64,000 nucleotides of DNA from Strigamia acuminata (Eukaryota; Arthropoda; Chilopoda; Geophilomorpha; Linotaeniidae): the NCBI GenBank assembly GCA_949358305.1, contig OX442320.1:994501-1058500 (forward strand). Direction: 5' to 3'. The translations under genes and the position numbers were made by a program. The notes below the pieces were generated by a model that was given only the letters and a program-made list of their open reading frames with translations, did not search any database and was not told the DNA's origin. Shown here piece after piece: positions 25,153 to 59,600 of this stretch. Position 1 is the first letter of the stretch; every line of letters begins with the position of its first letter.

Positions 25153-25174
25153 TGATGCCGTTGATGACCAGGAT
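25153..25174 (+). other. Degenerate tRNA-His-like primer site of element B
   Basis: Three bases after the LTR, the sequence starts TGATGCCG and ends TGACCAGGAT, the two ends of a tRNA-His primer site, with about four extra bases between them. TGACCAGGAT is shared exactly with elements A and C. Confidence 0.5.
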
Positions 25175-32919: not shown

Positions 32920-32972
32920 TTTGTTTGAGCTCGTTGTGTTTTCTCTTCTCTGTTCTCTCGCCGGCAATTCGC
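32920..32972 (+). other. 3' end of element A with atypical plus-strand primer region
   Basis: Between the stop codon and the LTR lies a pyrimidine-rich stretch and then CGCCGGCAATTCGC, directly followed by TGTTGC. A polypurine tract is expected here and is absent on the sense strand. The same GGCAAT arrangement precedes the 3' LTRs of elements B and C. Confidence 0.7.
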
Positions 32973-37500: not shown

Positions 37501-40500
37501 AAACACTATTTCTGAACATTCAGAGACATTGGTCTTGTGGTGTTTGTGCTAAGTCAACTGCGATGTGAAATGAGCTCAAAATTTTTTTTTCAAAATTTAT
37601 TGCTTGGATGTTGCTAAAACTTACATTGGAGCCTTCTACTAAGGTTTAAACACTATTTCTGAATATTCAGAGACATTGGTCTTGTGGTGTTTGTGCTAAG
37701 TCAACTGTGATGAGATCAAAAGTCTATTCTCCCAAATCATTGCTTGGATGTTTCTAAAACTTACATTGGAGCCTTCTACTAAGGTTTAAACACTATTTCT
37801 GAACATTCAGAGACATTGGTCTTGTGGTGTTTGTGCTAAGTCAACTATGATGAGATCAAAAGTCTATTCTCCCAAATGATTGCTTGGATGTTTCTAAAAC
37901 TTACATTGGAGCCTTCTACTAAGGTTTAAACACTATTTCTGAACATTCAGAGACATTGGTCTTGTGGTGTTTGTGCTAAGTCAACTGTGATGAGATCAAA
38001 AGTCTATTCTCGCAAATCATTGCTTGGATGTTGCTAAAACTTCTCTTGAAGTCTTCTACTAAGGTTTAAACACTATTTCTGAACATTCAGAGACATTGGT
38101 CTTGTGGTGTTTGTGCTAAGTCAACTGCGATGTGAAATGAGCTCAAAATTTTTTTTTCAAAATTTTTTGTTTGGATGTTGCTAAAACTTACATTGGAGCC
38201 TTCTACTAAGGTTTAAACACTATTTCTGAATATTCAGAGACATTGGTCTTGTGGTGTTTGTGCTAAGTCAACTGTGATGAGATCAAAAGTCTATTCTCCC
38301 AAATCATTGCTTGGATGTTTCTAAAACTTACATTGGAGCCTTCTACTAAGGCTTAAACACTATTTCTGAACATTCAGAGACATTGATCTTGTGGTCTTTG
38401 TGCTAAGTCAACTGCAATGTGAAATAAGCTCAAAATTTTTTTTTCAAAATTTATTGCTTGGATGTTGCTAAAACTTACATTGAAGGCTTCTACTAAGGTT
38501 TAAACACTATTTCTGAACATTCAGAGACATTGGTCTTGTGGTGTTTGTGCTAAGTCAACTGTGATGAGATCAAAAGTCTATTCTCCCAAATCATTGCTTG
38601 GATGTTTCTAAAACTTACATTGGAGCCTTCTACTAAGGTTTAAACACTATTTCTGAACATTCAGAGACATTGGTCTTGTGGTGTTTGTGCTAAGTCAACT
38701 GTGATGAGATCAAAAGTCTATTCTCCCAAATCATTGCTTGGATGTTTCTAAAACTTACATTGGAGCCTTCTACTAAGGTTTAAACACTATTTCTGAACAT
38801 TCAGAGACATTGATCTTGTGGTCTTTGTGCTAAGTCAACTGCAATGTGAAATAAGCTCAAAATTTTTTTTTCAAAATTTATTGCTTGGATGTTGCTAAAA
38901 CTTACATTGAAGGCTTCTACTAAGGTTTAAACACTATTTCTGAACATTCAGAGACATTGGACTTGTGGTGTTTGTGCTAAGTCAACCGTGATGAGATCAA
39001 AAGTCTATTCTCCCAAATCATTGCTTGGATGTTTCTAAAACTTACATTGGAGCCTTCTACTAAGGTTTAAACACTATTTCTGAACATTCAGAGACATTGG
39101 TCTTGTGGTGTTTGTGCTAAGTCAACTATGATGAGATCAAAAGTCTATTCTCCCAAATGATTGCTTGGATGTTTCTAAAACTTACATTGGAGCCTTCTAC
39201 TAAGGTTTAAACACTATTTCTGAACATTCAGAGACATTGGTCTTGTGGTGTTTGTGCTAAGTTAACTGTGATGAGATCAAAAGTCTATTCTCGCAAATCA
39301 TTGCTTGGATGTTGCTAAAACTTCTCTTGAAGTCTTCTACTAAGGTTTAAACACTATTTCTGAACATTCAGAGACATTGGTCTTGTGGTGTTTGTGCTAA
39401 GTCAACTGCGATGTGAAATGAGCTCAAAATTTTTTTTTCAAAATTTTTTGTTTGGATGTTGCTAAAACTTACATTGGAGCCTTCTACTAAGGTTTAAACA
39501 CTATTTCTGAACATTCAGAGACATTGGTCTTGTGGTGTTTGTGCTAAGTCAACTGTGATGAGATCAAAAGTCTATTCTCCCAAATCATTGCTTGGATGTT
39601 TCTAAAACTTACATTGGAGCCTTCTACTAAGGTTTAAACACTATTTCTGAACATTCAGAGACATTGGTCTTGTGGTGTTTGTGCTAAGTCAACTGCGATG
39701 TGAAATGAGCTCAAAATTTTTTTTTCAAAATTTATTGCTTGGATGTTGCTAAAACTTACATTGGAGCCTTCTACTAAGGTTTAAACACTATTTCTGAATA
39801 TTCAGAGACATTGGTCTTGTGGTGTTTGTGCTAAGTCAACTGTGATGAGATCAAAAGTCTATTCTCCCAAATCATTGCTTGGATGTTTCTAAAACTTACA
39901 TTGGAGCCTTCTACTAAGGTTTAAACACTATTTCTGAACATTCAGAGACATTGGTCTTGTGGTGTTTGTGCTAAGTCAACTATGATGAGATCAAAAGTCT
40001 ATTCTCCCAAATGATTGCTTGGATGTTTCTAAAACTTACATTGGAGCCTTCTACTAAGGTTTAAACACTATTTCTGAACATTCAGAGACATTGGTCTTGT
40101 GGTGTTTGTGCTAAGTCAACTGTGATGAGATCAAAAGTCTATTCTCGCAAATCATTGCTTGGATGTTGCTAAAACTTCTCTTGAAGTCTTCTACTAAGGT
40201 TTAAACACTATTTCTGAACATTCAGAGACATTGGTCTTGTGGTGTTTGTGCTAAGTCAACTGCGATGTGAAATGAGCTCAAAATTTTTTTTTCAAAATTT
40301 TTTGTTTGGATGTTGCTAAAACTTACATTGGAGCCTTCTACTAAGGTTTAAACACTATTTCTGAATATTCAGAGACATTGGTCTTGTGGTGTTTGTGCTA
40401 AGTCAACTGTGATGAGATCAAAAGTCTATTCTCCCAAATCATTGCTTGGATGTTTCTAAAACTTACATTGGAGCCTTCTACTAAGGCTTAAACACTATTT

Positions 40501-43392
40501 CTGAACATTCAGAGACATTGATCTTGTGGTCTTTGTGCTAAGTCAACTGCAATGTGAAATAAGCTCAAAATTTTTTTTTCAAAATTTATTGCTTGGATGT
40601 TGCTAAAACTTACATTGAAGGCTTCTACTAAGGTTTAAACACTATTTCTGAACATTCAGAGACATTGGTCTTGTGGTGTTTGTGCTAAGTCAACTGTGAT
40701 GAGATCAAAAGTCTATTCTCCCAAATCATTGCTTGGATGTTTCTAAAACTTACATTGGAGCCTTCTACTAAGGTTTAAACACTATTTCTGAACATTCAGA
40801 GACATTGGTCTTGTGGTGTTTGTGCTAAGTCAACTGTGATGAGATCAAAAGTCTATTCTCCCAAATCATTGCTTGGATGTTTCTAAAACTTACATTGGAG
40901 CCTTCTACTAAGGTTTAAACACTATTTCTGAACATTCAGAGACATTGATCTTGTGGTCTTTGTGCTAAGTCAACTGCAATGTGAAATAAGCTCAAAATTT
41001 TTTTTTCAAAATTTATTGCTTGGATGTTGCTAAAACTTACATTGAAGGCTTCTACTAAGGTTTAAACACTATTTCTGAACATTCAGAGACATTGGACTTG
41101 TGGTGTTTGTGCTAAGTCAACCGTGATGAGATCAAAAGTCTATTCTCCCAAATCATTGCTTGGATGTTTCTAAAACTTACATTGGAGCCTTCTACTAAGG
41201 TTTAAACACTATTTCTGAACATTCAGAGACATTGGTCTTGTGGTGTTTGTGCTAAGTCAACTATGATGAGATCAAAAGTCTATTCTCCCAAATGATTGCT
41301 TGGATGTTTCTAAAACTTACATTGGAGCCTTCTACTAAGGTTTAAACACTATTTCTGAACATTCAGAGACATTGGTCTTGTGGTGTTTGTGCTAAGTTAA
41401 CTGTGATGAGATCAAAAGTCTATTCTCGCAAATCATTGCTTGGATGTTGCTAAAACTTCTCTTGAAGTCTTCTACTAAGGTTTAAACACTATTTCTGAAC
41501 ATTCAGAGACATTGGTCTTGTGGTGTTTGTGCTAAGTCAACTGCGATGTGAAATGAGCTCAAAATTTTTTTTTCAAAATTTTTTGTTTGGATGTTGCTAA
41601 AACTTACATTGGAGCCTTCTACTAAGGTTTAAACACTATTTCTGAATATTCAGAGACATTGGTCTTGTGGTGTTTGTGCTAAGTCAACTGTGATGAGATC
41701 AAAAGTCTATTCTCCCAAATCATTGCTTGGATGTTTCTAAAACTTACATTGGAGCCTTCTACTAAGGCTTAAACACTATTTCTGAACATTCAGAGACATT
41801 GATCTTGTGGTCTTTGTGCTAAGTCAACTGCAATGTGAAATAAGCTCAAAATTTTTTTTTCAAAATTTATTGCTTGGATGTTGCTAAAACTTACATTGAA
41901 GGCTTCTACTAAGGTTTAAACACTATTTCTGAACATTCAGAGACATTGGTCTTGTGGTGTTTGTGCTAAGTCAACTGTGATGAGATCAAAAGTCTATTCT
42001 CCCAAATCATTGCTTGGATGTTTCTAAAACTTACATTGGAGCCTTCTACTAAGGTTTAAACACTATTTCTGAACATTCAGAGACATTGGTCTTGTGGTGT
42101 TTGTGCTAAGTCAACTGTGATGAGATCAAAAGTCTATTCTCCCAAATCATTGCTTGGATGTTTCTAAAACTTACATTGGAGCCTTCTACTAAGGTTTAAA
42201 CACTATTTCTGAACATTCAGAGACATTGATCTTGTGGTCTTTGTGCTAAGTCAACTGCAATGTGAAATAAGCTCAAAATTTTTTTTTCAAAATTTATTGC
42301 TTGGATGTTGCTAAAACTTACATTGAAGGCTTCTACTAAGGTTTAAACACTATTTCTGAACATTCAGAGACATTGGACTTGTGGTGTTTGTGCTAAGTCA
42401 ACCGTGATGAGATCAAAAGTCTATTCTCCCAAATCATTGCTTGGATGTTTCTAAAACTTACATTGGAGCCTTCTACTAAGGTTTAAACACTATTTCTGAA
42501 CATTCAGAGACATTGGTCTTGTGGTGTTTGTGCTAAGTCAACTATGATGAGATCAAAAGTCTATTCTCCCAAATGATTGCTTGGATGTTTCTAAAACTTA
42601 CATTGGAGCCTTCTACTAAGGTTTAAACACTATTTCTGAACATTCAGAGACATTGGTCTTGTGGTGTTTGTGCTAAGTTAACTGTGATGAGATCAAAAGT
42701 CTATTCTCGCAAATCATTGCTTGGATGTTGCTAAAACTTCTCTTGAAGTCTTCTACTAAGGTTTAAACACTATTTCTGAACATTCAGAGACATTGGTCTT
42801 GTGGTGTTTGTGCTAAGTCAACTGCGATGTGAAATGAGCTCAAATTTTTTTTTTCAAAATTTATTGCTTGGATGTTGCTAAAACTTACATTGGAGCCTTC
42901 TACTAAGGTTTAAACACTATTTCTGAATATTCAGAGACATTGGTCTTGTGGTGTTTGTGCTAAGTCAACTGTGATGAGATCAAAAGTCTATTCTCCCAAA
43001 TCATTGCTTGGATGTTTCTAAAACTTACATTGGAGCCTTCTACTAAGGTTTAAACACTATTTCTGAATATTCAGAGACATTGGTCTTGTGGTGTTTGTGC
43101 TAAGTCAACTATGATGAGATCAAAAGTCTATTCTCCCAAATGATTGCTTGGATGTTTCTAAAACTTACATTGGAGCCTTCTACTAAGGTTTAAACACTAT
43201 TTCTGAACATTCAGAGACATTGGTCTTGTGGTGTTTGTGCTAAGTCAACTGTGATGAGATCAAAAGTCTATTCTCGCAAATCATTGCTTGGATGTTGCTA
43301 AAACTTCTCTTGAAGTCTTCTACTAAGGTTTAAACACTATTTCTGAACATTCAGAGACATTGGTCTTGTGGTGTTTGTGCTAAGTCTTGTGG
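34540..43392 (+). repeat. Satellite array between elements A and C
   Basis: About 8.85 kb of 140/147-bp monomers with strong higher-order structure from about 37069 on. It ends abruptly at a junction (CTTGTGG then TCACAACTG) with a truncated LTR, where a full-length LTR would have been expected. No gene is seen. Confidence 0.96.
37069..43046 (+). repeat. 1281-bp higher-order repeat, nine monomers per unit
   Basis: Units start at 37069, 38350, 40485 and 41766, each E-A-A-(E or B)-A-D-C-B-A with monomers of 147 or 140 bp (3 x 147 + 6 x 140 = 1281). Between the second and third full units lies a six-monomer unit at 39631 (854 bp) that lacks the leading E-A-A. The rare variant GGCTTAAAC marks the first E monomer at 38350, 40485 and 41766. 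Such near-identical multimers are typical of recently homogenised satellite. Confidence 0.85.
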
Positions 43393-43732
43393 TCACAACT
43401 GAACTGGGAACAGGACAAGACTTAGAAATAGGTAAACATAACATGAAAACATTGGAAAACAAGACTAAAAATTCCTAAACCTTGACCCTGTCATTCTAAG
43501 AGATAAAATACCTAACAAACATTGTCTTTACTGAAAATTGGCACACAAAAAAAAAGACATGTAAAAATTCCTATTACAACAGAAAAAGATTAGATATTTG
43601 CTAAATAAATAATACAATTATAAGACCGAAATTAGTAACTCTTCTTTACATTTTCGAACACATAAAATCAAACTACTATCAAATTGACGAGCAGTTGTGG
43701 TCTCTCTTTCCTCCTTTCTGTTGCTCGAAACA
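43393..43732 (-). repeat. Truncated 3' LTR of element C (340 bp)
   Basis: It corresponds to the last 340 bases, in plus-strand order, of the 962-bp LTR and ends in CTCGAAACA. I see one base different from 56268-56607 (GACCCTG versus GACCTTG). The missing 622 bases and the expected GTGC flank are replaced by satellite, so a deletion or unequal exchange trimmed this side. Confidence 0.92.
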
Positions 43733-43825
43733 GAGATTGCCGCCGAAAAGAAAAGAAGGTGAAGAAGAACCTCTTAACAATTTGAAAACTTCTCATCCAC
43801 CTAGGATTAGCTTCCCAGTGACTCT
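43733..43825 (-). other. 3' trailer of element C
   Basis: 93 bases separate the kinase stop from the LTR. On the sense strand it is pyrimidine-rich and ends CGGCGGCAATCTC directly before TGTTTCG. It contains the GGCAAT motif seen at the same place in elements A and B, with no polypurine tract. Confidence 0.65.
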
Positions 43826-44240
43826 TTAAGGTGGGCGCAATTTTTTGCAGATCAGACTGGCCACCCATGGAGGTAATCTTCGATTCAAAATCGCTAAACT
43901 TAAATGTGCCGCTCCATTAATTAGCTTTCTCTTGACTTCTATAGAATTGATTGATTTCTGAAAACAGGTACGACACGTTGGCTTGTATCTCTCTTCTCCT
44001 CCCACAACCTGAACTTGCGTTTCACCCGATATTCGTTTGGTGAACGACGCTTGGTTTCCACAAAAGTGGCATTTGGCATGAAGTTTGACAATAGTTTCCA
44101 CTAGTGGAATGAGATTAGATACTGCCTTGAATTCCCGTCTCTTAAAATCACCATTTAAAACGGCAATTATTACATTCTTTTCTTCGTTCGCCATTTCGTC
44201 GGAAAACGAATCGATGTCTCCGAAAAATTGCCCTTCGTCG
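43826..44240 (-). pseudogene. TK1-like: Thymidine kinase (TK1-type), C-terminal part, in element C
   Basis: About 138 codons. Visible hallmarks of the TK1 family: DEGQFFGDI with the catalytic glutamate, VIIAVLNGDFKRREF after it, the lasso region (NLIPLVETIVKLHAKC), TKRISGE, and the zinc-binding pairs CHFC and CRTC. TK1 phosphorylates thymidine to dTMP with ATP. The stop TAA is at 43828-43826. The open frame on this strand extends to 44323, but its first 27 or so residues are gypsy LTR sequence and not kinase. The preceding part of the gene lies at 51904-54476. One ATAC copy plus the insert separates the two parts, and the reading frame is otherwise continuous (2573 + 415 bases = 996 codons including stop). 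It lacks introns, consistent with capture from mRNA. Confidence 0.93.
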
Positions 44241-44244
44241 ATAC

Positions 44245-44714
44245 TGTCATGCGGTTGAGTCGCGTCGTCTGCCGACCGTCTCAAACCAGCACAAATGTTA
44301 TTAGAGTTGTCAAAATCTATCACTAGACAGCGTACGTGATGGTGACGTCACGGGCGAGTCAATTAGAACTAACTCAGGGGGGTGACTTGAGTATAAAAGA
44401 GCAATTTTGGCTCTTAGAGCTCAGTCTTCCCAGGACTTCTAATGATTAATGTTTCAGCCAGTATATGGCATGATTAGTTTGCAAATAAGAAAGAAGGTGT
44501 TATTCATGTCTTCAGTCTTAATGTTTACTTTAGTTTTAGGTTTAGTTTTATGATTTCAATTAAGTTTATGTTTTGTAATTAAAGAATAAAAGAACATAGT
44601 TTATATTTCAACCTAAACTCTGACTCCTGTTCATTTCACTCTTAGTTATTAAATGATGTTCATCAAAATAGTTATAAGTTACGTGGTCATTATTGGCCAG
44701 TTGGCCACGTAACA
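44245..44714 (+). repeat. 5' LTR of the gypsy element (470 bp)
   Basis: It begins TGTCATGCGG and ends CACGTAACA. It contains a complete promoter (see 44343-44426) and AATAAA at 44585-44590 as the likely polyadenylation signal, giving an R region of roughly 180 bases. Confidence 0.96.
44343..44426 (+). promoter_or_regulatory. LTR promoter: CRE palindrome, TATA box, initiator
   Basis: TGACGTCA (44343-44350) is a perfect CRE/ATF palindrome. TATAAAA (44392-44398) is a canonical TATA box. TCAGTC (44421-44426) is an arthropod-type initiator placed 29 bases downstream of the TATA start. The spacing fits RNA polymerase II core promoters. The same set recurs in the 3' LTR (CRE at 51532, TATA at 51581). 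Confidence 0.75.
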
Positions 44715-45352
44715 AAGTGGTGGAGATTGCGGTTTTCTTTTGAGACCCACTAATTGGTTGATAAAAGTAGTGAATAAGTGAAAGTTTACAGTAAAATCAG
44801 CCAATTTTGTGCTAAAATTGAGAAGTTAGAGCTAAAAAACCCCCGTAAAAACTCAGTGAAAATAGTAGAAACTCTTATAAAATTTAGAAAGAGTGCAGAT
44901 TAATTTGCATATTAGAGAAAATAAGAGTGAATCATAGAGTGACTCAGAGTTTGGAAGCAGTTTCTTAGTGAATAATTAATGAGATTGCATTGAATTAGAT
45001 AATACTTTGGATTAAATTGTTAAAGTTGTTTAAAATTGTTGAATATTGGATATTTAGAGGGAAATAATTTTGATAATAATTTATAGTTTTAACAAATGTA
45101 TAATTTTTTTTTTTTTTTTTCAGGAAGTTAATAAATTGTATTGATTCTAGTGATGACTAATAGTAGTATTTGTCTATTTTCAGGAAATTAGTGACATTGT
45201 TGTTAATATTTTGAATTTGATTTGGTGTTTGGTGATAATAAATTAAATTTATTTCAGGATTGTGTGTTGGCGAATTGTGGTTATTAGTGAATGGGTGAAG
45301 TGCATTATAGAGTAGTAAAAATAAAAATTATAGTGCAGTTCAAGGCTTAACA
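44715..45352 (+). other. Leader of the gypsy element
   Basis: About 640 AT-rich bases without a recognised gene. TGGTGGAGATTGCGG starts at 44718, three bases after the LTR, and is the likely primer binding site; I cannot assign its tRNA. Three splice-acceptor-like sites follow: a run of about 18 T then CAG at 45121-45123, and TTTCAGGA near 45178 and 45254. They may permit a spliced mRNA. Confidence 0.6.
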
Positions 45353-46735
45353 GTGGAGGAATCAGTAAAGCTTACACAAACACAAACGGATTGTCTGCTA
45401 GATTTACAAAACCAAGAACTACAAAGGACAGTGGATAACCGTAATATCACAACTAAAAGAGGGAGTGGAAAAATAAAACACACTAAACCTGAAGTTATAG
45501 AGGAAGAACAAGTTGTTGAAATAAAACAAGAGGAACCAGTTGTTGAGATAAACCAAGAAGAGCATTTTCAAGACTCATTATCCCAACAGGAACTTGATTC
45601 TTCTTCACCTTTGAAATTAATAAAGCCAAAATTGTTACAATCAGTTTTTGAATTATTAACACCAATAAAGATACAAACACCTTTAGTAAATACTAATACT
45701 CAGGGATCCACATCAAAAGGAGCGAAATCCAAGATGGCGGACCCAATAGCAGTTCTAACTGACCTTTTTAAGAGTGTAATGGTACAGAAGCGGGATGTCA
45801 TTTGTTATGATACAATAAAAGGAAACATCGACCAATGGCTAGTGGCATACGAAGCCACAATAAGCACGGATGATGAAAGAGTTAAGCATTTACCATTAGC
45901 GTTAAAAACTGATGGACTGGCATGGTTTGTGGAGTTATTAAAAAAGAATCCAACATGGACTTGGACCGAGTGGAAACCACAACTTGAAACAAAGTTTCGT
46001 AGGGGCCAGGAAAATGTTTTAAATACTCTTCACTTCATGAGACATACAGAAGGAACAGCAGATGCTTACATGAAGAAAGTCTTGGCCGAGTGTGCTTTTG
46101 TGTTGCCGGCACTTACTGAAGGACAAAAAATTAATTATGTTTACCAAGGTTTGAAGCCGGCAATGCAGCAAATGATGGTGACAGTATTCCCGACTAAACT
46201 GGCAGAGATGGAACAAAGACTTAAATTGTATGAGACTATGAAAGTCAAGGATCCAGCGGATGTGCTGCTGTCACTTTTCAAAAAGGTAGTGGACGAAAAG
46301 GTAACTCCAGTAACAGCAGGTAAACTGAGTGGAACTGTAGTAACCCCATTAACCCACGATGAGCTTTTAGCTGAAAATGCAAGGTTGAGGCAACAGTTAT
46401 TAGCTTTTGAGACAGAGGATCCGGAGTCGGAAGTACCCATCTTAATAGGAAGCCAGTGGTATGCACCAATGAAGCGAAGGGGTCAGAATTTTCAATATAA
46501 GAATTTTCAAGGAAGTATTAATAGAGGTGGTGGTCAAAATTACAATACTAATAATAACAACAATAGTAATAATAATAATACTCGTTCGTGCGGATGCTAT
46601 CATCATTTTAGTTGCGAGTTCTATAATCCACCAAGATACCAACAGGATAGAGGTGGTAATGCAGGAAGACCAAGAAGACGTAGAAGAGAAGGTCCTAATC
46701 CTACAGTCAACAACCAACAGCAGACGGAAAACTAG
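45353..46735 (+). CDS. Gypsy element Gag
   Basis: The frame is open from 45311 to TAG 46733-46735 but has no ATG before 45734. From the GTG at 45353 it gives 460 codons; from the first in-frame ATG at 45734 it gives 333. That ATG lies in CAAGATGGCGGA, a plausible start context, so initiation there, or on a spliced RNA, is more likely than GTG. The central part (about codons 150-275 from 45353) has a retrotransposon Gag capsid fold signature ([28 protein letters not shown]). The C terminus is Asn-rich, then has an odd cysteine cluster CGCYHHFSC, not a standard CCHC knuckle, and an Arg-rich tail. Gag would form the particle and bind RNA. No break is seen. Confidence 0.88.
46699..46735 (+). other. 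Gag/Pol overlap with probable -1 frameshift
   Basis: The Pol frame is open from 46699 and lies in -1 relative to Gag, overlapping it by 37 bases up to the Gag stop. GGAAAAC at 46726-46732 sits directly before the Gag TAG and would let the A-site AAC codon re-pair as AAA after a -1 slip. It is not a perfect X XXY YYZ heptamer, and no stem was tested. Confidence 0.5.
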
Positions 46736-49700
46736 CTGAACGGCCACAGAGAAATTGTTACCATCCAAATAGAAGTAAGAAGAAGAAGAGAAGGTGGAAA
46801 AAGGATAACATCACTATAATCGACGTAAAAATTTCGGAGTCATTGTTGGAAATCCCAGTAATTGTAAAAAATTTGGAAATAAAGGCAGTCATGGACACTG
46901 GAGCAAAAAGTAACCTTTTGAGTGAAGAAATAGCAGAAGCTTTGCAGTTGAATTACACGCCTACGCCAAACATTAGATTGCGAGGAATAGGTAATGACTT
47001 AATAACTCCAGTGGGCAAGATAAATTTGAACATTCACATAGGACAATTGCAGTATGCAGTTGAAGTTTTAATAGTTAAGGATTTCAATTACCAGCTTTTA
47101 TTGGGTGACCCATTTATGACATTTGCGAGATGTGTTGTCGATTATGACTTACAAAAAATCTTTGTGGGCCGAAATAGTGGAGTAGAAGCAGTTTTCCCGA
47201 TGAATAAGACGTACGTGGATCAGAATTATGTAGCAAGAGTGACAAAAAATATAGCAATTCCACCAATGCACGAATGTGTAGTTCCAGTTAATTTAAGTAC
47301 AGCTTTGACAACAGAAATGTTTTTGGAACCTTTAGGTAATGTAATCGATAGGTTCGGAATTCTCTGTTGCAAGACATTGACGAAATTTGAGAACGGCAAA
47401 GGCGTAATTCGAGTGGCAAATCCAACATCAAAGTCCATATTTCTACAGGAGAAGTCTGCGATTGGTAAGGCACATTATATTATTGAAATTGGGTTGTTTG
47501 ATGAAAAACAAGTAAATTGCTTTGACTCTAACTCCCCAACTGCCAAAGGCATTGGAGGGTTGGATGAAAAGCAAGCACATTGCTTTGACTTTGACTCTTC
47601 AATAGCCAAAGATAAGATGAATAAGAGTCAACAAGAGCAGATAAAGCAGCTACTCCAAAAGAATAAGGACAGGTTTGCCATTTCAGATACAGATTTAGGA
47701 AGAGTAACCAACTTTAGCCACAAGATAGATACAGGTGACCATGATCCTATTCACTTGCAGCCGTATAGACGATCAATCACAGAAAAAGAAGTAGAAGCTG
47801 AGGAAACAAGGAAATTGTTAGAACAAGGAGTCATTAGGGAATCGGAAAGTCCTTGGAGCGCGCCAGTCTTGCTCATCAAGAAAAGAGACGGCAAATGGAG
47901 GTTTTGTGTTGATTGGAGGAGGTTGAACGCAATTACAAAGAAAATGGTGTACCCACTACCTAGAATAGATGACACTTTAGATCAACTAGCAGGGGCCCAG
48001 TTTTTCTCGATGATGGATTTAATCCAATGATACCATCAAGTTGAAATAAATGAACAAGACCGAGAGAAGACAGCGTTCACCACTTCAACCGGACACTATG
48101 AATTTAACGTCCTCGGAATGGGGTTATGTAATAGCCCAGCTGCGTTTCAAAAATTGATGAATAAAGTATTGGGCAACCTCCTGGGAAAGGTCTGTATAGC
48201 CTATCTTGACGACCTTATAATTTTTTCTAAAACATTTGAACAACATTTACAAGACTTGGACTCAGTTTTCGAAAAACTGCGAATTGCGAATTTGAAGGTG
48301 AAGCTGAGTAAATGTACTTTCGGGACCAATACCATCCGGTATCTCGGACATGTAATTGATTCAGAGGGCGTTTCACCAGATCCACGAAATCTCGAGTCTG
48401 TGGCAAAATTTCCGGTGCCACTAAATGTCAAACAATTAAGGGGATTTTTGGGTTTGTGTTCATATTATAGAAAATTCATTTTAGGATTTGCTGATATTTC
48501 CAAACCTTTGGTCAACCTTACGAAGAAAGACGAGAAATTCGACTGGGGACCGCCTCATGAAGAAGCATTTAAGCGACTAAGAACAGCTTTGGTAACGGTA
48601 CCTGTGCTGGCTCACCCCAATTTCGCACAGCCATTTATAATATCGACGGACGCTAGTGCTTACGGTCTTGGAGCTATCCTGAAGCAGAAGATCAATAATC
48701 AGGAGCATGTTATATGCTATGCAAGTAGGTTGCTGAGCCAAGCCGAACAGAACTATACCGCGACGGAAAGAGAATGTCTCGCCATATTGTTCGGCATAGA
48801 GAAGTATCGACCTTACTTGTACGGAAAGAAGTTTACCATCATCACGGACCATTCAGCCCTTCAATGGCTGAAAAGCGTCAAGAATCCAAATGGTAGGTTA
48901 GCACGATGGAGTCTGCAATTGGTTGATTACGATTATGATGTACTGCATAAGTCGGGCAAGAAACACACAGATGCCGATGCATTAAGTAGAATTCCAGAAG
49001 AGGTTGGTGGAGAAGAAATCATAGAAATTCCTTCACTGGCTCTCGAGAATCTCAATTTGCCTGCTGAGCAGCGCAAAGATCAGAAGATTTTGGAAATCAT
49101 CACAACCTTGCAGAAAAATGAGCAACTTCCGCGCAACAGAAGACGAACGCTAAAGCAATTCGTACTTCAAGGCGATACATTGTTTAAGAAGAAGAAATTT
49201 GATTCCTTAAACACGGAAGAATTGTTGTATGTTCCGCAGCATTTACGCAGGTGCGTATTAGTTGAAATGCATGACGGTCTTACAGGAGCTCATTTAGGCC
49301 TTAACAAAACGTGGAAGAGAATAAGAACAAGATTCTTCTGGCCTAAGATCTATAGGGACGTGAGGAATCACGTACTCTCATGTTCATCGTGTGCAAGTGC
49401 AAAAACTATGACAACGCCACCAAAAGGATTGATGCAACCGTGGTCGACAGTGTCGAGACCGTTTGAAAGAGTCGCCATAGACACATTAGGAAGTTTTCCA
49501 ACATCTGATACAGGAAACAAGTATGTTTTCATTATTACGGATTATTTGTCACGCACTGCAATAGCTAGAGCAGCACCAGCTTGCACAGCTCTTGAAGCAG
49601 CGAAAGCACTTGTTTATGAAGTCATGGTGAAAGAAGGAAGCCCACGAGAGATTTTGAGTGATAAGGAAACAGAATACAGAAATGAGATGATTAAAGAGAT

Positions 49701-50643
49701 ATCTGCATTATTCAAATCCGTCCACAAGAACACTTCCGGATACCATCCAAGAACAAATGGGCTCACGGAAAGATTTAATGCAACATTAGCAAAAATGTTG
49801 CAGAATTATGTAAATAAAGATCACACGGATTGGGATGAATTTTTGCCATTTCTTCTTTTCTCTTATAATACTGGAGTCCATGAAACAACAGGTTATACCC
49901 CTTATTATTTAATGCGAGGCTATGAAGCTGATCTCAACGTGGATGTCAACTTAAACCTTCCTCGAAAAGAATTCACTTTGCGTACTTCCAGATTTATCAG
50001 GGAGGCAAGGAGAATTTCTAATGAACGGATACAAGAACAAGGTGAAAAAAGCAAGAAACGCTTTGATTTGGACAGAGTACATGTGGAATTCGATCCAGGA
50101 GAGCTAGTATATTTGAAAACACCAAATAGAAAGGTTGGTTTGAGCGAGAAACTCCTGCCACAATTCTCTGGTCCATATGAGATAGTGCGAAGAACAGCAC
50201 CAAATGATTACGAAATTCGAAGTTCGTCAGGTAAGAAAATGGATATTGTAAACATAGAGCGATTAAAACCATACAAGGCAAGAGAAGAAATCTCAGATGA
50301 CATCATGAAACCTTTAACATCTAAAAAGGTTACATTTGCCGAGGATTTGACAGAAACAGACAAACAGAATGAAATAGTCACGAAAAACAACGAAAATTCG
50401 TCAAACAAACCTGTTTCTGCGGCAACGGAACGTTTCATCGACGATGATGACCAAATATCATTACGAGGCCTATTCGAGAATGAACTTCCGGCGAAAAGTG
50501 AGAAAAATCAACTACCGAAACCGTCACCAGGTGTCGCAAGTGCGGTTGACAACGACGCGCACGCGCGACCGCCTGAAATTGGCAGTTTCCGGTCACGCCG
50601 CCTACGAAAGCAGGATCGACGCGATTACACCACATTTTATTAG
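46699..50643 (+). pseudogene. Gypsy element Pol, broken by one nonsense codon
   Basis: Order: aspartic protease ([11 protein letters not shown] codon at 46894; LLLGDPFM); RT with [11 protein letters not shown]; a TGA at 48028-48030 exactly where this motif family has a conserved glycine codon before YHQ; RT continuing in the same frame with YLDD at 48202-48213; RNase H (STDASAYGLGA, TATERECLAIL); integrase zinc finger (MHDGLTGAHLG, SCSSCASAK); DDE core (AIDTLGS at about 49480, LSDKETE, TNGLTERFN); a GPY-type module (FSGPYEIVRR); and a charged tail ending at TAG 50641-50643. The whole span of 1315 codons has no other stop or frameshift. The nonsense codon should give a protein truncated in RT, so this copy is not autonomous unless the stop is read through or is a sequencing error. 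Confidence 0.93.
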
Positions 50644-51433
50644 GTTGTGTCAAAGAAAGCACAAGTAAATTGTAGCGACCTGAGACAAAGCCTGATTTAA
50701 GTCTTAACAAACTTCATTTCAACGAGTTTTCGTGTGAAAGTAGGTATTGTTGTGGAATAATTGAATTAAAAATTAGGAATGCGGAAATTTGAGACGAATT
50801 CAACGTGATTATTTGAAGCTGCACTGAAATTATTAACTTAGGAATTTTTCACATTGAATATTTAATAAGTTTAGACTTAATAATTTGAACAATAGCTACA
50901 ATAGACAGATTGGATATTAAGTTGGAATTCAACTGGAATCAACTTGAGATACATAATCGACCGTGATTGGATGCGTCACGCGCACCCAATTCATCTGCGC
51001 CATCGCATCTTGTATGAACTGGCCCAAAAGGCATTGGAGCCATTCAAGGAGGAGACCGAAAAACTTAGACCTCCGGTGTAAATTTTAATTTGTAATTTGA
51101 TTTTGTTTTGCTTATTTTCATTTAAAATGTGAATTTTGTAATTTTATATAGAAAAATGTTGAAAACCAGAAAAAAAAAGTAATATAATGTAGATGAGAAA
51201 ATCCAAAAAGTGTTATTATGAATAATTAATGCGTATTGAAATGTATCGATTGACATTGAAATTTTCTTTTGTGAATTTTATTTATGACTAAATGACATGA
51301 AGATATGAATAACACATGGGAATGACTCGTAATTTTAGTGTTAAAATAAGGATTATTAGAATGAATAACACGAGGGTAGCTTAAAATTTTGATTGCTTTG
51401 GTTTTTGGAGACCAAAAAACTAAAAGAGGGAGT
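50644..51433 (+). other. 3' untranslated region and polypurine tract of the gypsy element
   Basis: About 790 AT-rich bases with no env. A more GC-rich patch holds a small frame, ATG 50971 to TAA 51081 (36 codons; MRHAHPIHLRHR... then ELAQKALEPF), of unknown origin. The polypurine tract is AAAAGAGGGAG at 51422-51432, one base before the LTR, the standard plus-strand primer. Confidence 0.75.
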
Positions 51434-51903
51434 TGTCATGCGGTTGAGTCGCGTCGTCTGCCGACCGTCTCAAACCAGCACAAATGTTATTAGAGTTGTC
51501 AAAATCTATCACTAGACAGCGTACGTGATGGTGACGTCACGGGCGAGTCAATTAGAACTAACTCAGGGGGGTGACTTGAGTATAAAAGAGCAATTTTGGC
51601 TCTTAGAGCTCAGTCTTCCCAGGACTTCTAATGATTAATGTTTCAGCCAGTATATGGCATGATTAGTTTGCAAATAAGAAAGAAGGTGTTATTCATGTCT
51701 TCAGTCTTAATGTTTACTTTAGTTTTAGGTTTAGTTTTATGATTTCAATTAAGTTTATGTTTTGTAATTAAAGAATAAAAGAACATAGTTTATATTTCAA
51801 CCTAAACTCTGACTCCTGTTCATTTCACTCTTAGTTATTAAATGATGTTCATCAAAATAGTTATAAGTTACGTGGTCATTATTGGCCAGTTGGCCACGTA
51901 ACA
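51434..51903 (+). repeat. 3' LTR of the gypsy element (470 bp)
   Basis: I see no difference from 44245-44714. It is followed by ATAC and the minus-strand kinase sequence of element C. Confidence 0.96.
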
Positions 51904-54476
51904 ATACCTATCGTCTTGACCGACTCCGCAATTTTCTTGATTTCCTGTAACGACGCGACCCGAACCGCTGGACGTCGTTGTCCGGTGTGGCTAACCATTT
52001 CATCTTTACTATATCTAACGTCTGTCAAATGCTTAACCAGCAGGCAAGAATTTTCTTCTTCATTTCGGATTACATTAAGTAAAGCAGTAGTTTTTCCAGA
52101 AAACATTGGGCCAATTACTAAATGTATATTTCCCGTGGCCTTTGTGACTGCATTTGATCTTCTGTGCGAATTAATGAGTTTCTTGCGACTCCATTTCAAT
52201 ATCTTCCTCCATTTACTTAAACCCTTTTCTTCATCTTTTTTGAAATTTTTCGGAAATTCTCCTTTCTTTTCCGTAGACTCCAGTGTGTCAGGACTCTGAG
52301 AAATCGCCATCTTGCCCGACCTTATCCCTTTAAACGTCCGCTTTCCATCCATTTCCAATTCGATGGGGACGTCAGGATGCCGTACCTCCAGCTCGCTAGA
52401 GCGGCTCGCGGCAAAACGAGAAGCGATGACGCCTTTTGCTCGTACTCCACCCTTTTCGCTTTTCTCGTCGGGCATTGATGTGGAATTCGCCTGTCCAAAC
52501 CCGCCTTTGTCCTTTTTTGAAGTGTTGAAAGTCATCTTCTTTCCAGAATCGATCGCCATACACGATACATCTCCCAGTGAGATATCGTCTTTGTAGATGG
52601 AAGGCTCTTTTGAGTTAATTTGTCCGTTTAAAATCCATCCAAAAACTGTTTTCATCATTCCTAATTCTGGACTAATTCTCTTCGTTCCCGCTTGAATTAT
52701 TTTCCACCATGCTCCACTTCCGATCAAGACATCTACCTCATCTGACACGGAGGGATGTGGTTCTGCCATCTCAAGATTAAACGACTTGATTTGTTGCAGC
52801 GTCTGGTGATCTACCACTCCCTTTATATTGGGAAGTGTGTCGGTATCAAGAGCAAATACAGACACTTTCTGCTTGTCGTGACGAGACTGCAACTCGAATC
52901 TAAACACGTCATGAGTTGTAGGAACTGGTTCCTTGTTCAGCAGACACTGGGTCATGGTGTGATACGTCTCAATCTTGTTTAGGTGTAATTTCTTTGCTAA
53001 CCGCTTCGTAATATATGAACGATGACTACCCGGATCGAGTAATCCACGAACTGGGATTGTTTCGCCACTCTTTCGGACGAACAATGCTGTGAAAACCATT
53101 AGCTGGACGTCACTTGAGACCGACAACGAGACGTTGGCGGAGACGTTCTCTTCTTTGGTATCAGTTGGCTTTTCCGCATGACCTCTGTTACAAATTGAAG
53201 AATGGTGTCGACCACCGCATGATCGGCAACAAAATTTTACAGGGCAGTTACCCACTGTATGGCTTGGTCTCAGGCAATTAAAGCATAGACGTTTTCGCTT
53301 AACGATGTCGTATTTCTCCGAAACTTCCAGATTTGCGTCGCAATTATTGTTGAAATGATCTCCTTCACAGAAGGCACAGATCAATTTCCGGACTGGACCT
53401 GATTTTGGTTTGAATGATTCTTTCGTATTGGACCCAAATGACGTATTTTGCGCAACCGCGCAAGATGATATGGTCCCTCGTAATTCTTCTTTTTGCTCTC
53501 TAGTTGCTGGTTTCTCACTCTTCTTGGTGACTTTCTGACTGGTAAATACGCTATCGTCTGATAATTCTGCTACTCTGACTTCGCTTGCTACAAATTCGAG
53601 AAATAAATTAACGTTTTCCACGTTTCCTTTGTAAATCCTATGAAATCGTCTTCCCAATTCCGGTGGAAACTTCCGCAATAATTCCGGGATTAGAAATAAT
53701 CCAGTAGTCGTAACTGGGAACTTCAACTGTTCTAATGTTCGGAAAGCACCGGTGAGGGACGTCAATAGAGATTTTACTGGCTTGATTGGGTACAAATCTT
53801 TAACTGCTTCGGCTTCACGAATTTTCCTCGCCAGAGCGTTCTTTTGGGCTACTTCTGACCCAAAAAGTCCTTCTAAACTGCTAAGTGCCATTAAATACGA
53901 ATCGTTAGTAAGTGGGTACGACTTGATTGCCACTTCCGCTTCCCCGATACAACTTGATTTCAGGTATTGAAGTTTTTCGACGTTCGATAACTCGGCATCG
54001 GCGTCAACTGTGGTTGAAAACATATCCATGAAGCTCTTATACTCCATCGGATTCCCGTCGAATTTCTGCAATGTCAGCTTTGGAAGCTTTGTAGTCTTCC
54101 TTGAGATTATCGATGAGTTGTTCAGAAATCCAGAATTCATTAGCGTATTTCCGCCGGGATGTGCCCCAAACTTATCCTGCATCTGTTTTGAAAATTTCGT
54201 CCTTTGCTTAAGAAGATTGACCTTAGTCCTAATGTCTTCGAGACGTCTCAAACTAAGCAGGTAATCTGAACGTTCTATCTTGTCTTTAAAGACAGCGAGC
54301 TCATCAATAAGGTCACTCAACTGCGCATCTATTGTTGCGTGGAGAGCTTCAAGCTCACCCCCGTCGAGAACGTTTGCAGATGTCGAGAGCAGATCCTCTG
54401 CTCCTTGGGCCTTGGCTTGCCATTGTGTTTCTTTCTCTTCCGCTGCTTCCGCGGTCAAACCAGCTGCAGTTGCCAT
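51904..54476 (-). pseudogene. Element C Gag-protease fused to thymidine kinase N-terminal part
   Basis: ATG at 54476; 857 codons of element sequence before the gypsy insertion (the frame runs a few codons into the LTR and stops at 51879). Domains: coiled-coil-like N terminus (15-95); DUF1759-type capsid region from about 130 (FDGNPMEYKSF); knuckles CFNCLRPSHTVGNC and CRSCGGRHHSSIC (about 395-426); BEL aspartic protease with DPGSHRSYI at 481; similarity to element A ends at FGWILNGQ (about 619), just before RT would begin. Codons 620-781 are a Lys/Ser-rich linker of unknown origin (nt 52619-52134). From 782 a TK1 domain starts: GNIHLVIG, P-loop GPMFSGKT (789-796), KHLTDVRYS, SHTGQ, ending at TIGI. 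The remainder is at 43826-44240. The predicted product is a particle-borne polyprotein with protease and kinase but no polymerase. This copy is disrupted. Confidence 0.92.
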
Positions 54477-55623
54477 TTATTCTCGAGAAAGAGAGAATGA
54501 GAATAAAAATTCTATTCAACAACTCAATCACTGCTAATTAAATCCCCACGAAATATTCTCTGAACTTCACAGACTCTCACTTATACTTGCTTAGCGTTAA
54601 TTCAAATGCGGTGTGCAAATGAAAAACGACCTCGAAATAAATTGCTAAACTCAACTCTGAAATGCCACAGACAAATTGACTTAACACACTATACGTAATA
54701 CAATGGGACGGAATTATTGACCGCACAAATTGACTTATCCGCATAAATATCTTGATAATTCCCCCAAAATGCACTTAGTTCGAAATTAATAATTAATATC
54801 TAACCGCACAACCGAGATAAATAGTTATCTTTTACAATAACACTGCACAAAGGAGATAAATAGTTATATTTTACAATAACCCCGCACAAAGAGATAAATA
54901 GTTATATTTTACAATAACCCCGCACAAAAAGAGATAATAGCTATAGTTTATAATAGCGCTGCACAAAAGAGATAATTAGCTATCATATACAATAGTTCTG
55001 CACTTAAGAGATAATAACTTGATATTTAAAATTATTGACATAAAAAACCCCTTTTAAACTCCCCAAACACAGCTCGAAATTGGCAGAAACTTCCTTGAAA
55101 AATCAGATAAAGAATTAATTTAAATAAATATAATTCTTAAATTCTAACAGCAATTGAATTAAAATTAATCTTGTTCTTTTTTCAGCTGCAGATGAACTTG
55201 AAGATTGACATTGCGTTGTGTTTCTCAAATTGTTGACCAGGAAATCGCTTGCTTGTCTCCTTATGTTGACCGCCACAGTAGAAGGACTCCGAACTCGTTA
55301 CACTTGACATAAAATCCACTGACGAATCAACTCCCTGACGACTGCGAAGGATGACACAGCACAAACACACTTCTGTCGCAATTGGCGACAATAATCCAGT
55401 GGAAATAAATCAAAAAACGTGTTGTCACACACTTCACACCACGAAAATCGGCACCACACACTGCTTACTGCGAACTAGATGCCACACACTGCCTCACTGT
55501 GAAGCTGGGAACACACACGCAAATCACCGTGAAATCGACGTCACACACCTGGCTAAAAATGCAATGACGTGCACTGAAATCCACTGGAAGAACTGGACGA
55601 AAATCCTGGTTGGCAACAACAAA
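54477..55623 (-). other. Leader of element C with a hairpin-bearing minisatellite
   Basis: About 1.15 kb without a recognised gene. At about 54811-55040 lie five to six imperfect 38-41-bp repeats, each with GAGATAA and a short inverted repeat (GTTAT ... ATAAC), ending GCAC. At 55415-55560 (plus strand) CACAC-rich blocks recur (CACCACACACTG, GCCACACACTGCC). Whether these repeats have a packaging or expression role is unknown. Confidence 0.7.
54811..55040 (-). repeat. 38-41-bp minisatellite in the leader of element C
   Basis: Successive units on the plus strand share GAGATAAATAGTTAT, then TTTACAATAAC, then GCACAA, becoming more divergent to the right. Each could form a small GTTAT/ATAAC stem in the RNA. 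Confidence 0.75.
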
Positions 55624-55641
55624 ATCCTGGTCACGGCACCA
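55624..55641 (-). other. Primer binding site of element C, tRNA-His
   Basis: The plus strand reads ATCCTGGTCACGGCACCA, the 3' end expected for an arthropod tRNA-His including CCA, four bases from the LTR. On the sense strand this is TGGTGCCGTGACCAGGAT. It fixes the element's orientation as minus, in agreement with gag. Confidence 0.85.
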
Positions 55642-55645
55642 AAAA

Positions 55646-56607
55646 TGTTGCAACTCGCCACTGCCGTGATGCGACGAGTTGTAACGCGATGGGGAATTCT
55701 TGGCAAATTTCCCATAGGCCTATACTGAGAGGAGAAATGAGTTGACTTGAGTTTCTGCACTGGATCTTGTGGGGAGCTGCTCCAGGGAGTTTGGGGTTAA
55801 CTCTCCCTACTCACTCATGCTTTGTGTTGAAGGAAATAAAGCTTGTTGTTGAAAATTCCACATAATGTTTTTATTCTTTTTTAAAACATTAAAATGGAGG
55901 CAAAATCCAACATAACTACATCTAATTCTTCCTAACAAGAGTGTAACAACTTCATAACAACAACAATTCTATAGCAACAACAAATTCACGAGGCACCTAG
56001 TGACTAAATTCATAAATAACATAAGTTAAAGCTTGCATTGTGCCTCATAATAGAGATAAAATCAACTAAAATTAACAGAAACCATTGGAAAGAATTATAA
56101 CAAATAGAAAAGGAATAAACTTAACTAAATATGCAAATAACGCATCTAAAACAAGTCAAATACACTGTAAAAATGCATTAATTGCAATTCATTACAAAAT
56201 TAACAATTCCTTCTTTTCCAATGCACCTTTAAAGCAACTCAGATGCTTCAACCCCGTCATTCCGCCTTCACAACTGAACTGGGAACAGGACAAGACTTAG
56301 AAATAGGTAAACATAACATGAAAACATTGGAAAACAAGACTAAAAATTCCTAAACCTTGACCTTGTCATTCTAAGAGATAAAATACCTAACAAACATTGT
56401 CTTTACTGAAAATTGGCACACAAAAAAAAAGACATGTAAAAATTCCTATTACAACAGAAAAAGATTAGATATTTGCTAAATAAATAATACAATTATAAGA
56501 CCGAAATTAGTAACTCTTCTTTACATTTTCGAACACATAAAATCAAACTACTATCAAATTGACGAGCAGTTGTGGTCTCTCTTTCCTCCTTTCTGTTGCT
56601 CGAAACA
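55646..56607 (-). repeat. 5' LTR of element C (962 bp, complete)
   Basis: The plus strand runs TGTTGCAACTCG to CTCGAAACA. It is followed by GTGC and the satellite variant AAACCTACATTGG, the same flank as for the solo LTRs. On the sense strand AATAAA lies at 55875-55870. The 71-codon frame inside starts at TTG and is not a gene. Confidence 0.95.
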
Positions 56608-59600
56608 GTGCTAAGTCAACTGCGATGTGAAATGAGCTCAAAATTTTTTTTTCAAAATTTATTGCTTGGATGTTGCTAAAACCTACATTGGAGCCTTCTA
56701 CTAAGGTTTAAACACTATTTCTGAACATTCAGAGACATTGGTCTTGTGGTGTTTGTGCTAAGTTAACTGTCATGAGATCAAAAGTCTATTCTCGCAAATC
56801 ATTGCTTGGATGTTGCTAAAACTTCTCTTGAAGTCTTCTACTAAGGTTTAAACACTATTTCTAAACATTCAGAGACATTGGTCTTGTGGTGTTTGTGCTA
56901 AGTCAACTGCGATGTGAAATGAGCTCAAAATTTTTTTTTCAAAATTTATTGCTTGGATGTTGCTAAAACTTACATTGGAGCCTTCTACTAAGGTTTAAAC
57001 ACTATTTCTGAATATTCAGAGACATTGGTCTTGTGGTGTTTGTGCTAAGTCAACTGTGATGAGATCAAAAGTCTATTCTCCCAAATCATTGCTTAGATGT
57101 TTCTAAAACTTACATTGGAGCCTTCTACTAAGGTTTAAACACTATTTCTGAACATTCAGAGACATTGGTCTTGTGGTGTTTGTGCTAAGTCAACTGTGAT
57201 GAGATCAAAAGTCTATTCTCCCAAATCATTGCTTGGATGTTTCTAAAACTTACATTGGAGCCTTCTACTAAGGTTTAAACACTATTTCTGAACATTCAGA
57301 GACATTGATCTTGTGGTGTTTGTGCTAAGTCAACTGTGATGAGATCAAAAGTCTATTCTCCCAAATCATTGCTTAGATGTTTCTAAAACTTACATTGGAG
57401 CCTTCTACTAAGGTTTAAACACTATTTCTGAACATTCAGAGACATTGGTCTTGTGGTGTTTGTGCTAAGTCAACTGTGATGAGATCAAAAGTCTATTCTC
57501 CCAAATCATTGCTTGGATGTTTCTAAAACTTACATTGGAGCCTTCTACTAAGGTTTAAACACTATTTCTGAACATTCAGAGACATTGGTCTTGTGGTGTT
57601 TGTGCTAAGTTAACTGTGATGAGATCAAAAGTCTATTCTCGCAAATCATTGCTTGGATGTTGCTAAAACTTCTCTTGAAGTCTTCTACTAAGGTTTAAAC
57701 ACTATTTCTAAACATTCAGAGACATTGGTCTTGTGGTGTTTGTGCTAAGTCAACTGCGATGTGAAATGAGCTCAAAATTTTTTTTTCAAAATTTATTGCT
57801 TGGATGTTGCTAAAACTTACATTGGAGCCTTCTACTAAGGTTTAAACACTATTTCTGAATATTCAGAGACATTGGTCTTGTGGTGTTTGTGCTAAGTCAA
57901 CTGTGATGAGATCAAAAGTCTATTCTCCCAAATCATTGCTTAGATGTTTCTAAAACTTACATTGGAGCCTTCTACTAAGGTTTAAACACTATTTCTGAAC
58001 ATTCAGAGACATTGGTCTTGTGGTGTTTGTGCTAAGTCAACTGTGATGAGATCAAAAGTCTATTCTCCCAAATCATTGCTTGGATGTTTCTAAAACTTAC
58101 ATTGGAGCCTTCTACTAAGGTTTAAACACTATTTCTGAACATTCAGAGACATTGATCTTGTGGTCTTTGTGCTAAGTCAACTGCAATGTGAAATAAGCTC
58201 AAAATTTTTTTTTCAAAATTTATTGCTTGGATGTTGCTAAAACTTACATTGTAGGCTTCTACTAAGGTTTAAACACTATTTCTGAACATTCAGAGACATT
58301 GGTCTTGTGGTGTTTGTGCTAAGTCAACTGTGATGAGATCAAAAGTCTATTCTCCCAAATCATTGCTTGGATGTTTCTAAAACTTACATTGGAGCCTTCT
58401 ACTAAGGTTTAAACACTATTTCTGAACATTCAGAGACATTGGTCTTGTGGTGTTTGTGCTAAGTCAACCGTGATGAGATCAAAAGTCTATTCTCCCAAAT
58501 CATTGCTTGGATGTTTCTAAAACTTACATTGGAGCCTTCTACTAAGGTTTAAACACTATTTCTGAACATTCAGAGACATTGGTCTTGTGGTGTTTGTGCT
58601 AAGTCAACTGTGATGAGATCAAAAGTCTATTCTCCCAAATCATTGCTTGGATGTTTCTAAAACTTACATTGGAGCCTTCTACTAAGGTTTAAACACTATT
58701 TCTGAACATTCAGAGACATTGGTCTTGTGGTGTTTGTGCTAAGTCAACTGTGATGAGATCAAAAGTCTATTCTCCCAAATCATTGCTTGGATGTTTCTAA
58801 AACTTACATTGGAGCCTTCTACTAAGGTTTAAACACTATTTCTGAACATTCAGAGACATTGGTCTTGTGGTGTTTGTGCTAAGTCAACTATGATGAGATC
58901 AAAAGTCTATTCTCCCAAATGATTGCTTGGATGTTTCTAAAACTTACATTGGAGCCTTCTACTAAGGTTTAAACACTATTTCTGAACATTCAGAGACATT
59001 GGTCTTGTGGTGTTTGTGCTAAGTCAACTGTGATGAGATCAAAAGTCTATTCTCGCAAATCATTGCTTGGATGTTGCTAAAACTTCTCTTGAAGTCTTCT
59101 ACTAAGGTTTAAACACTATTTCTGAACATTCAGAGACATTGGTCTTGTGGTGTTTGTGCTAAGTCAACTGCGATGTGAAATGAGCTCAAAATTTTTTTTT
59201 CAAAATTTTTTGCTTGGATGTTGCTAAAACTTACATTGGAGCCTTCTACTAAGGTTTAAACACTATTTCTGAATATTCAGAGACATTGGTCTTGTGGTGT
59301 TTGTGCTAAGTCAACTGTGATGAGATCAAAAGTCTATTCTCCCAAATCATTGCTTGGATGTTTCTAAAACTTACATTGGAGCCTTCTACTAAGGTTTAAA
59401 CACTATTTCTGAACATTCAGAGACATTGGTCTTGTGGTGTTTGTGCTAAGTTAACTGTGATGAGATCAAAAGTCTATTCTCGCAAATCATTACTTGGATG
59501 TTGCTAAAACTTCTCTTGAAGTCTTCTACTAAGGTTTAAACACTATTTCTGAACATTCAGAGACATTGGTCTTGTGGTGTTTGTGCTAAGTCAACTGCGA

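Follow-up and report, generated by a model that had tools for sequence, protein, structure and literature searches.

Non-autonomous BEL/Pao derivatives with a thymidine kinase behind Gag and protease in the centipede Strigamia acuminata

Retrotransposons of the BEL/Pao group (Belpaoviridae, Semotivirus) are bounded by long terminal repeats (LTRs) with TG...CA ends, create short target duplications of 4–6 bp and encode a DUF1759 Gag and a protease, followed by reverse transcriptase (RT), RNase H and integrase. In a 64,000-nucleotide stretch of the Strigamia acuminata genome (contig OX442320.1, positions 994,501 to 1,058,500; hereafter the window) we analyzed an element that is like them in its LTR ends, its 4-bp duplications, its DUF1759 Gag and the order of its putative protease, but that has a spacer and a thymidine kinase (TK) of the TK1 type where BEL elements have RT, RNase H and integrase. 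It is an open question whether retrotransposition in real cells is limited by the supply of nucleotides, and the approaches to it have so far been via SAMHD1 and retroviral dUTPase. A retrotransposon that lacks a polymerase and keeps a TK makes this question directly testable, as TK is simple and has well-established assays, and the output of the partner element is measurable.

Several described systems share parts of this arrangement. TR-GAG elements are gag-only non-autonomous LTR elements that are mobilized in trans, and maize Bs1 and others are LTR elements with captured host genes. The TK element resembles TR-GAG in having LTRs and a gag frame but no pol, and differs in carrying an enzyme with signs of purifying selection. 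It shares with Bs1 a host-type gene within an LTR element, but here the gene is an old one that retains its catalytic motifs and has been maintained in two families. A dUTPase is described between protease and RT in bdelloid (Juno/Vesta/TelKA), fungal and planarian (giant gypsy) LTR elements (PMC5408684, PMC6431247). These elements, like dUTPase-bearing retroviruses, thus have an enzyme of nucleotide metabolism in the polyprotein beside the protease; in them, however, the enzyme is a dUTPase and pol is kept, whereas the element described here has a TK1-type kinase and no pol. Teratorn is noted to have no TK (PMC5601938). No LTR retrotransposon with a TK is described among the papers listed on TK in connection with retrotransposons, transposable elements, BEL and Polintons, in a search that left subscription papers largely outside.

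We read the element as a pol-less, non-autonomous BEL/Pao retrotransposon that would make a Gag-protease-TK polyprotein, with the TK supplying thymidine monophosphate (dTMP) for reverse transcription, and we give this reading a probability of roughly 0.6. It builds on the architecture of the element, on the many intact copies, on insertion sites that differ between copies and have recent LTRs, and on signs of purifying selection on the TK in pairwise comparisons. The fusion and maintenance of the kinase are well supported; the biochemical role we infer. In this system a nucleotide-salvage enzyme has become a fixed part of a Gag polyprotein, and the same TK lineage is present in several repeat classes.

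Architecture of the Gag-protease-TK element

The copy in the window (Table 1) is split within the TK by a gypsy-type insert. The frame on the 5' side, of which the final few residues are a read-out into the insert, matches the DUF1759 Gag at 3e-15 and positions 1–83 of the TK family profile PF00265 at 6.8e-13 in Pfam. The remaining part of the kinase is found in the frame 43826–44347 (173 aa, minus strand), which matches positions 82–176 of the same profile at 1.3e-33. Both halves of the kinase recognized in an earlier sequence-only reading of the window are thus identified as TK, and the insert with its 4-bp duplication and the 962-bp LTR described there were recovered as well. The joined frame of 996 codons including the stop, which that reading had predicted by discounting the insert, occurs naturally, as 32 of 150 scored matches in the genome are uninterrupted copies of 995 aa. 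Within the frame, Gag occupies residues 139–282, the protease approximately 475–619 and the TK 782–951, with the spacer between protease and TK. The proposed Gag and its Cys/His zinc knuckles, the latter identified by eye, were upheld. Less firm is the assignment of a DUF1758-type protease, for which the match was weak (E 0.0054), though the Gag-protease part aligns with BEL Gag-protease over residues 7–618 at 38% identity.

No RT, RNase H or integrase domain was detected by Pfam in the two Gag-TK frames scanned, and only 93 bp separate the stop codon from the LTR. Because no RT or integrase follows the TK, the element is a non-autonomous BEL/Pao derivative rather than a full member of the family. 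The TK occupies the place of pol and has not simply been added to a complete retrotransposon. Of the suggestion that a BEL element had captured a TK, the fusion of a BEL-type frame with the kinase is supported, while a simple joining of the TK to a complete retrotransposon is not.

Copies and insertion sites in the genome

A search of the whole S. acuminata assembly with PF00265 gave 205 candidates, of which 150 matches were scored (L-numbers below denote the genomic loci fetched). The mitochondrial COX1 of this assembly has its closest match, out of 7,999 proteins scored, in the geophilomorph centipede Mecistocephalus marmoratus (84%). Uninterrupted frames of Gag-protease-TK length, counted by open-frame length, were present at 84 of the 150. 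The family of the window copy, F1, accounts for 37 of these (32 frames of 995 aa and 5 of 1002 aa), and a second family, F2, for 47 (34 of 1013 aa and 13 of 1009 aa). Five such frames were read fully or partly (L009, L010 and L012 in F1; L011 and L013 in F2), and the intact copies are natural, without edited sequence. One intact frame per family was scored, showing PF00265 matches above the cut-off over positions 1–176 or 3–176 (E 4e-55 and 2.6e-54) and DUF1759 matches at 4.8e-15 and 2e-17. The idea of a BEL-type element with an in-frame TK1-family kinase behind Gag and protease was therefore correct and even understated, and the many intact copies rule out both an assembly chimera and a one-off event as the source of the junction of Gag and TK.

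The other 66 matches comprise 40 of class Y (190 aa), 13 with the lengths of class X, 5 of class Z and 8 of other lengths, with the assignment to X, Y and Z extrapolated from representatives. Three of the eight matches of other lengths were read (L003, L027 and L028) and proved to be Gag-TK copies that are truncated or interrupted. A candidate pol-plus-TK element at L028 was rejected, as L029 revealed that an autonomous BEL interrupts a Gag-TK copy there. When the genome was searched with Gag only, 87 of 1,220 candidates were scored, and the identity to the query of all 87 was either 92–100% (F1-like) or 58% (F2-like). F1 and F2 share 54% of residues in both Gag and the TK, 63% in the protease and 27% in the spacer. 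There are two old element families, not the single element initially envisaged, and related TKs are located on three other repeat classes. One end of C13, taken as the Y chromosome by its length, is rich at 7.9–10.3 Mb in intact copies from the two Gag-TK families and in BEL pol frames.

The insertion sites are informative about how the copies arose. At L012 the two LTRs are identical (0 differences in 725 bp) and flanked by the target duplication GACC; the LTR pairs of the F2 copies L011 and L013 show 0 differences in 551 bp and 0 in 428 bp, respectively, over the stretches compared. For the window copy, the outer flank of the 5' LTR is GTGC (56608–56611), that is, GCAC on the element's strand, which is the 4-bp target duplication that is complete at the window's solo LTRs, as read at one of the four. 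The LTR end was seen at 10 of the 11 F1 loci scanned (L001–L010 and L012), the exception being the divergent copy L002. Here, L001 and L009 represent one locus, as do L004 and L010, a tandem pair with a common LTR and hence no outer flank. The outer 3' flanks at seven F1 loci (L003, L005, L006, L007, L008, L009 and L012) are all different. The variety of flanks, together with the 4-bp duplications and the identity of the LTR pairs, suggests that the copies inserted recently and independently of one another. The copies might alternatively be satellite-driven segmental duplications of a single accidental Gag-TK fusion, as they are mostly located in a few assembly blocks, several of the flanks read are satellite, and one 5' flank is common to the window copy and all four solo LTRs in the window. 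We regard this as highly improbable, since it is contradicted already by the flanks of L005, L006, L009 and L012, and also by the seven differing 3' flanks taken together, the target duplications, the identical LTR pairs and the divergence of the two families.

Enzyme features, constraint and origin of the kinase

Judged by its PF00265 match, P-loop, DEGQF motif and two zinc-binding Cys pairs, the F1/F2 domain is a TK1-type kinase. The best matches of the natural domain among solved structures are 1w4r and 1xbt, which we take to be human cytosolic TK, at 2e-45 along its whole length, with the P-loop, DEGQF and the Cys pairs aligned. All of these motifs are intact in the aligned F1, F2, Y and Z rows (the P-loop of F2 being GPMYAGKT); in class X, the copy at L022 has lost the P-loop glycine, while the other X copies read retain it. 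The profile match, P-loop, DEGQF and zinc pairs are shared with animal cytosolic TK1 and poxvirus TK, but the BEL TK is intronless, fused to Gag, placed in a separate clade (98/95) and 44–45% identical to the TK1 of the host. TK1-family enzymes are tetramers, and the domain might serve as a structural module that aids Gag multimerization or the binding of ATP or nucleic acid, with no need for dTMP synthesis. The 84 intact frames, which fuse TK to Gag without an intervening stop, would suit such a module. A pure scaffold would, however, not need the P-loop, DEGQF and four zinc cysteines that have been kept (one representative per family) despite 46% divergence, which makes this explanation unlikely.

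The ratios of nonsynonymous to synonymous change (omega) are pairwise Nei-Gojobori estimates from few copies, with silent sites saturated between F1 and F2. On this basis, the comparison of dN/dS across copies proposed earlier gave an omega for the TK of 0.13–0.19, as compared to 0.39–0.93 for the spacer. For the pair of L009 and L028, the latter a divergent copy, omega was 0.125 for the TK, 0.12 for Gag (102 codons only), 0.06 for the zinc knuckles and 0.075 for the protease, while the spacer (0.39) and the C-terminal tail (0.37) were less constrained. Between the F2 copies L011 and L013, the values were 0.19 for the TK, 0.93 for the spacer and 0.72 for the tail; Gag and the knuckles had no residue changes, and the 0.58 of the protease is based on two changes. 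A second method gave 0.17 and 0.27 for the TK and 0.86 and 0.95 for the spacer, with no value for several other segments. Outside the Gag-TK families, omega of the TK was 0.13 between X and Y and 0.33 between two Z copies. The TK looks to be under purifying selection. The main evidence that it would serve the element is that its constraint is about that of Gag, beside a nearly free spacer.

The three further classes are large repeats with an intronless TK frame: Y (190 aa; L023–L025), X (216–269 aa and longer; L016–L022 and L026) and Z (221/239 aa; L014–L015). Among stretches longer than 250 bp, X and Y align over the TK only (78.6%). Ten frames of X, Y and Z were scanned, of which one is the TK itself and the other nine had no Pfam match over the cut-off, and no repeat class was assigned to the 25-kb stretch of Y that was examined. 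We tentatively suggest, at somewhat less than even odds, that one old intronless TK lineage, distinct from the TK1 of the host, circulates within a single genome as a mobility gene of repeats that are unrelated to each other (the two BEL families and X, Y and Z), kept for a catalysis that feeds dTMP to the DNA synthesis of mobile elements. If true, these would be the first retroelements known with their own thymidine salvage enzyme. The presence of the TK on X, Y and Z, with nine non-TK frames lacking a Pfam match, and the lack of pol in the Gag-TK element would also fit a TK that is host-benefiting cargo or a passenger, with autonomous BELs mobilizing any RNA that bears their signals. Yet the TK outlasted the split of the two families with an omega about as low as that of Gag, and the host already has a TK1 of its own; we thus find this improbable.

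This host TK1 gene, found by motif on the same contig as the window but in another part of it (C9, by its length chromosome 7, approximately 8.318 Mb; L036 1240–2300), has seven exons and six introns with GT-AG borders. Earlier motif searches had missed it because an intron splits the P-loop and the host gene has DMYMAVCR. Phylogenies were inferred from 51 rows without the host TK1 and with three poxvirus TKs (tree A), and from 41 rows with the host TK1 and two poxvirus TKs (tree B), both midpoint-rooted, with the host gene as the sole myriapod TK1 among the rows. The host TK1 was placed among animal TK1s. In tree B, the BEL TKs (three rows) formed a clade with support 95/93, the TKs of the other repeats (four rows, three classes) one with 95/83, and the two together a joint clade with 98/95; the equivalents in tree A were 98/93, 96/86 and 98/92. 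A database protein of 182 aa (P0036) was the neighbour of the repeat-borne clade in tree A (91/86) but not in tree B. The seven TKs sampled from repeats, all without introns, constitute one clade separate from the host TK1; in neither tree was the repeat-borne clade nested in arthropods or grouped with the sampled poxvirus TKs.

A recent retrocopy of the host TK1 was rejected in view of the different clade, the 44–45% identity and the seven-exon structure of the host gene. From these comparisons the TK is judged not to derive from the present host TK1, so that the capture of a host TK1 mRNA, as first proposed, is not sustained in that form; the TK may instead have been captured from an mRNA very long ago and have changed fast since then. 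Another conceivable although doubtful source is a large DNA virus, from which an intronless TK would have been acquired by BELs and other repeats, and which is compatible with a role in dTMP supply. In favour of such a source, the sampled TKs of the repeats lack introns and cluster separately from animal TK1, and the best 120 of 860 database matches to the BEL TK include several from poxviruses; against it, the clade is separate in both trees from the poxvirus TKs included. The top-scoring match among these best 120 of 860 is a 307-aa protein from the nematode Parascaris univalens (P0019), which contains two TK stretches.

Possible trans partners and surroundings in the window

In the cycle that we propose for the pol-less element, Gag would form particles and package the element RNA, and RT and integrase would be provided in trans by autonomous BELs of the same genome. 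Fused to Gag, the TK would travel inside the particle or close to it, perhaps be released by the protease, and phosphorylate thymidine for conversion to thymidine triphosphate (dTTP) for cDNA synthesis. By analogy with the dUTPase of retroviruses and retrotransposons, the benefit may be greatest in non-dividing cells. A genome search for BEL integrase gave 147 scored of 1,371 candidates, many within open frames of 1751–1783 aa, and the Gag-protease of four BEL frames compared was 35–38% identical to F1 and F2. The core of the primer-binding site (PBS)-like stretch of the window copy is common to two autonomous BELs, which carry one extra base (TTTTTGGTGC-CGTGACCAGGAT against TTTTGGTGCACGTGACCAGGAT). 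The 3' junctions are also alike: TTTTCGGCGGCAATCTC/TGTTTC in F1, TTTTCGCCGGCAATCTA/TGTTGC in F2 and TCTCGCCGGCAATTCGC/TGTTGC in the window's own BEL. These similarities to autonomous BELs in the PBS core and the 3' junction make trans-mobilization by BELs plausible. An integrase tail beside the LTR at L009 was considered as a trace of the autonomous partner and rejected; the other pol loci fetched (L031 and L032) had no LTR of the TK element, and the more likely reading of L009 is that the TK element inserted there into another BEL.

Several observations weigh against this reading. No autonomous BEL with the LTR of the TK element was found, so that the partner is a guess. A variant PBS-like stretch, TTTTTGGTACCGTGACCCAAGGAT, is present in the F1 copies L004/L010 and L012, and in F2 no PBS-like stretch was located. 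In the protease region, the Pfam matches to Asp_protease_2 and DUF1758 are below the curated cut-offs. The omega values have a few-copy pairwise basis, and the near-identical copies L009 and L012 differ in the TK by 2 residue changes and 0 silent ones, too few to interpret. Among 7,992 scored candidates in the protein database, 18 relatives of the whole Gag-TK protein were found, none of which has a TK domain, so that this search gave no Gag-TK protein outside the S. acuminata genome. Finally, besides transposition, satellite amplification apparently multiplied one insertion in the window.

Table 1. Features of the TK element, its insert and its solo LTRs in the window.
Feature	Position	Strand	Remarks
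BEL/Pao-type LTR element		-	single frame in the order Gag, aspartic protease, spacer, TK1-type thymidine kinase
5' LTR	55646-56607	-	962 bp, TG...CA ends; 40 LTR matches scored of 101 candidates genome-wide
PBS-like stretch	55620-55645	-	TTTTTGGTGCCGTGACCAGGATTT; adjoins LTR directly
5' untranslated region / leader	54477-55645	-	about 1.17 kb; internal tandem repeat of about 37-40 bp
Gag (DUF1759), zinc knuckles, aspartic protease, spacer, first TK half	51879-54476	-	865-aa frame; P-loop GPMFSGKT
Gypsy-type insert	44245-51903	+	7.66 kb; splits TK; 4-bp duplication ATAC at 44241-44244 and 51904-51907
Gypsy insert LTRs	44245-44714, 51434-51903		470 bp each
Gypsy insert, frame in gag position	45311-46732		no Pfam match
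Gypsy insert, protease	46699-48027		
Gypsy insert, RT/RNase H/integrase	48031-50640		in-frame stop separates protease and RT frames
Second TK half, C-terminal tail, stop	43826-44244	-	DEGQFF, lasso region, CHFC and CRTC zinc pairs
3' stretch	43733-43825	-	93 bp; ends in junction CTTTTCGGCGGCAATCTC ahead of 3' LTR
3' LTR	43393-43732	-	340 bp left; abuts satellite DNA; 1 difference in 340 from 5' LTR
Four solo LTRs of the TK element	~4639-5600, 7733-8694, 11815-12776, 14909-15870		

The LTR pairs at 4639–15870 were considered as further small elements and rejected in favour of solo LTRs, because the two intervening stretches of 2132 bp are identical, satellite-like and without frames of at least 60 aa on the element's strand. 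Satellite DNA with a unit of approximately 140/147 bp covers about 1–19120, 34540–43390 and 56610–64000 of the window, and one 27-base word occurs 201 times in the window, every time on the plus strand. An autonomous-type BEL is located at 19121–34539 with satellite on either side; its LTRs of 1568 bp are 99.87% alike. It contains a Gag frame at 21578–24385 and a pol frame at 30232–32916 with Peptidase_A17 and integrase domains, and is split by a stretch with direct repeats of 913 bp (24237–25149 and 29406–30318), probably another LTR element.

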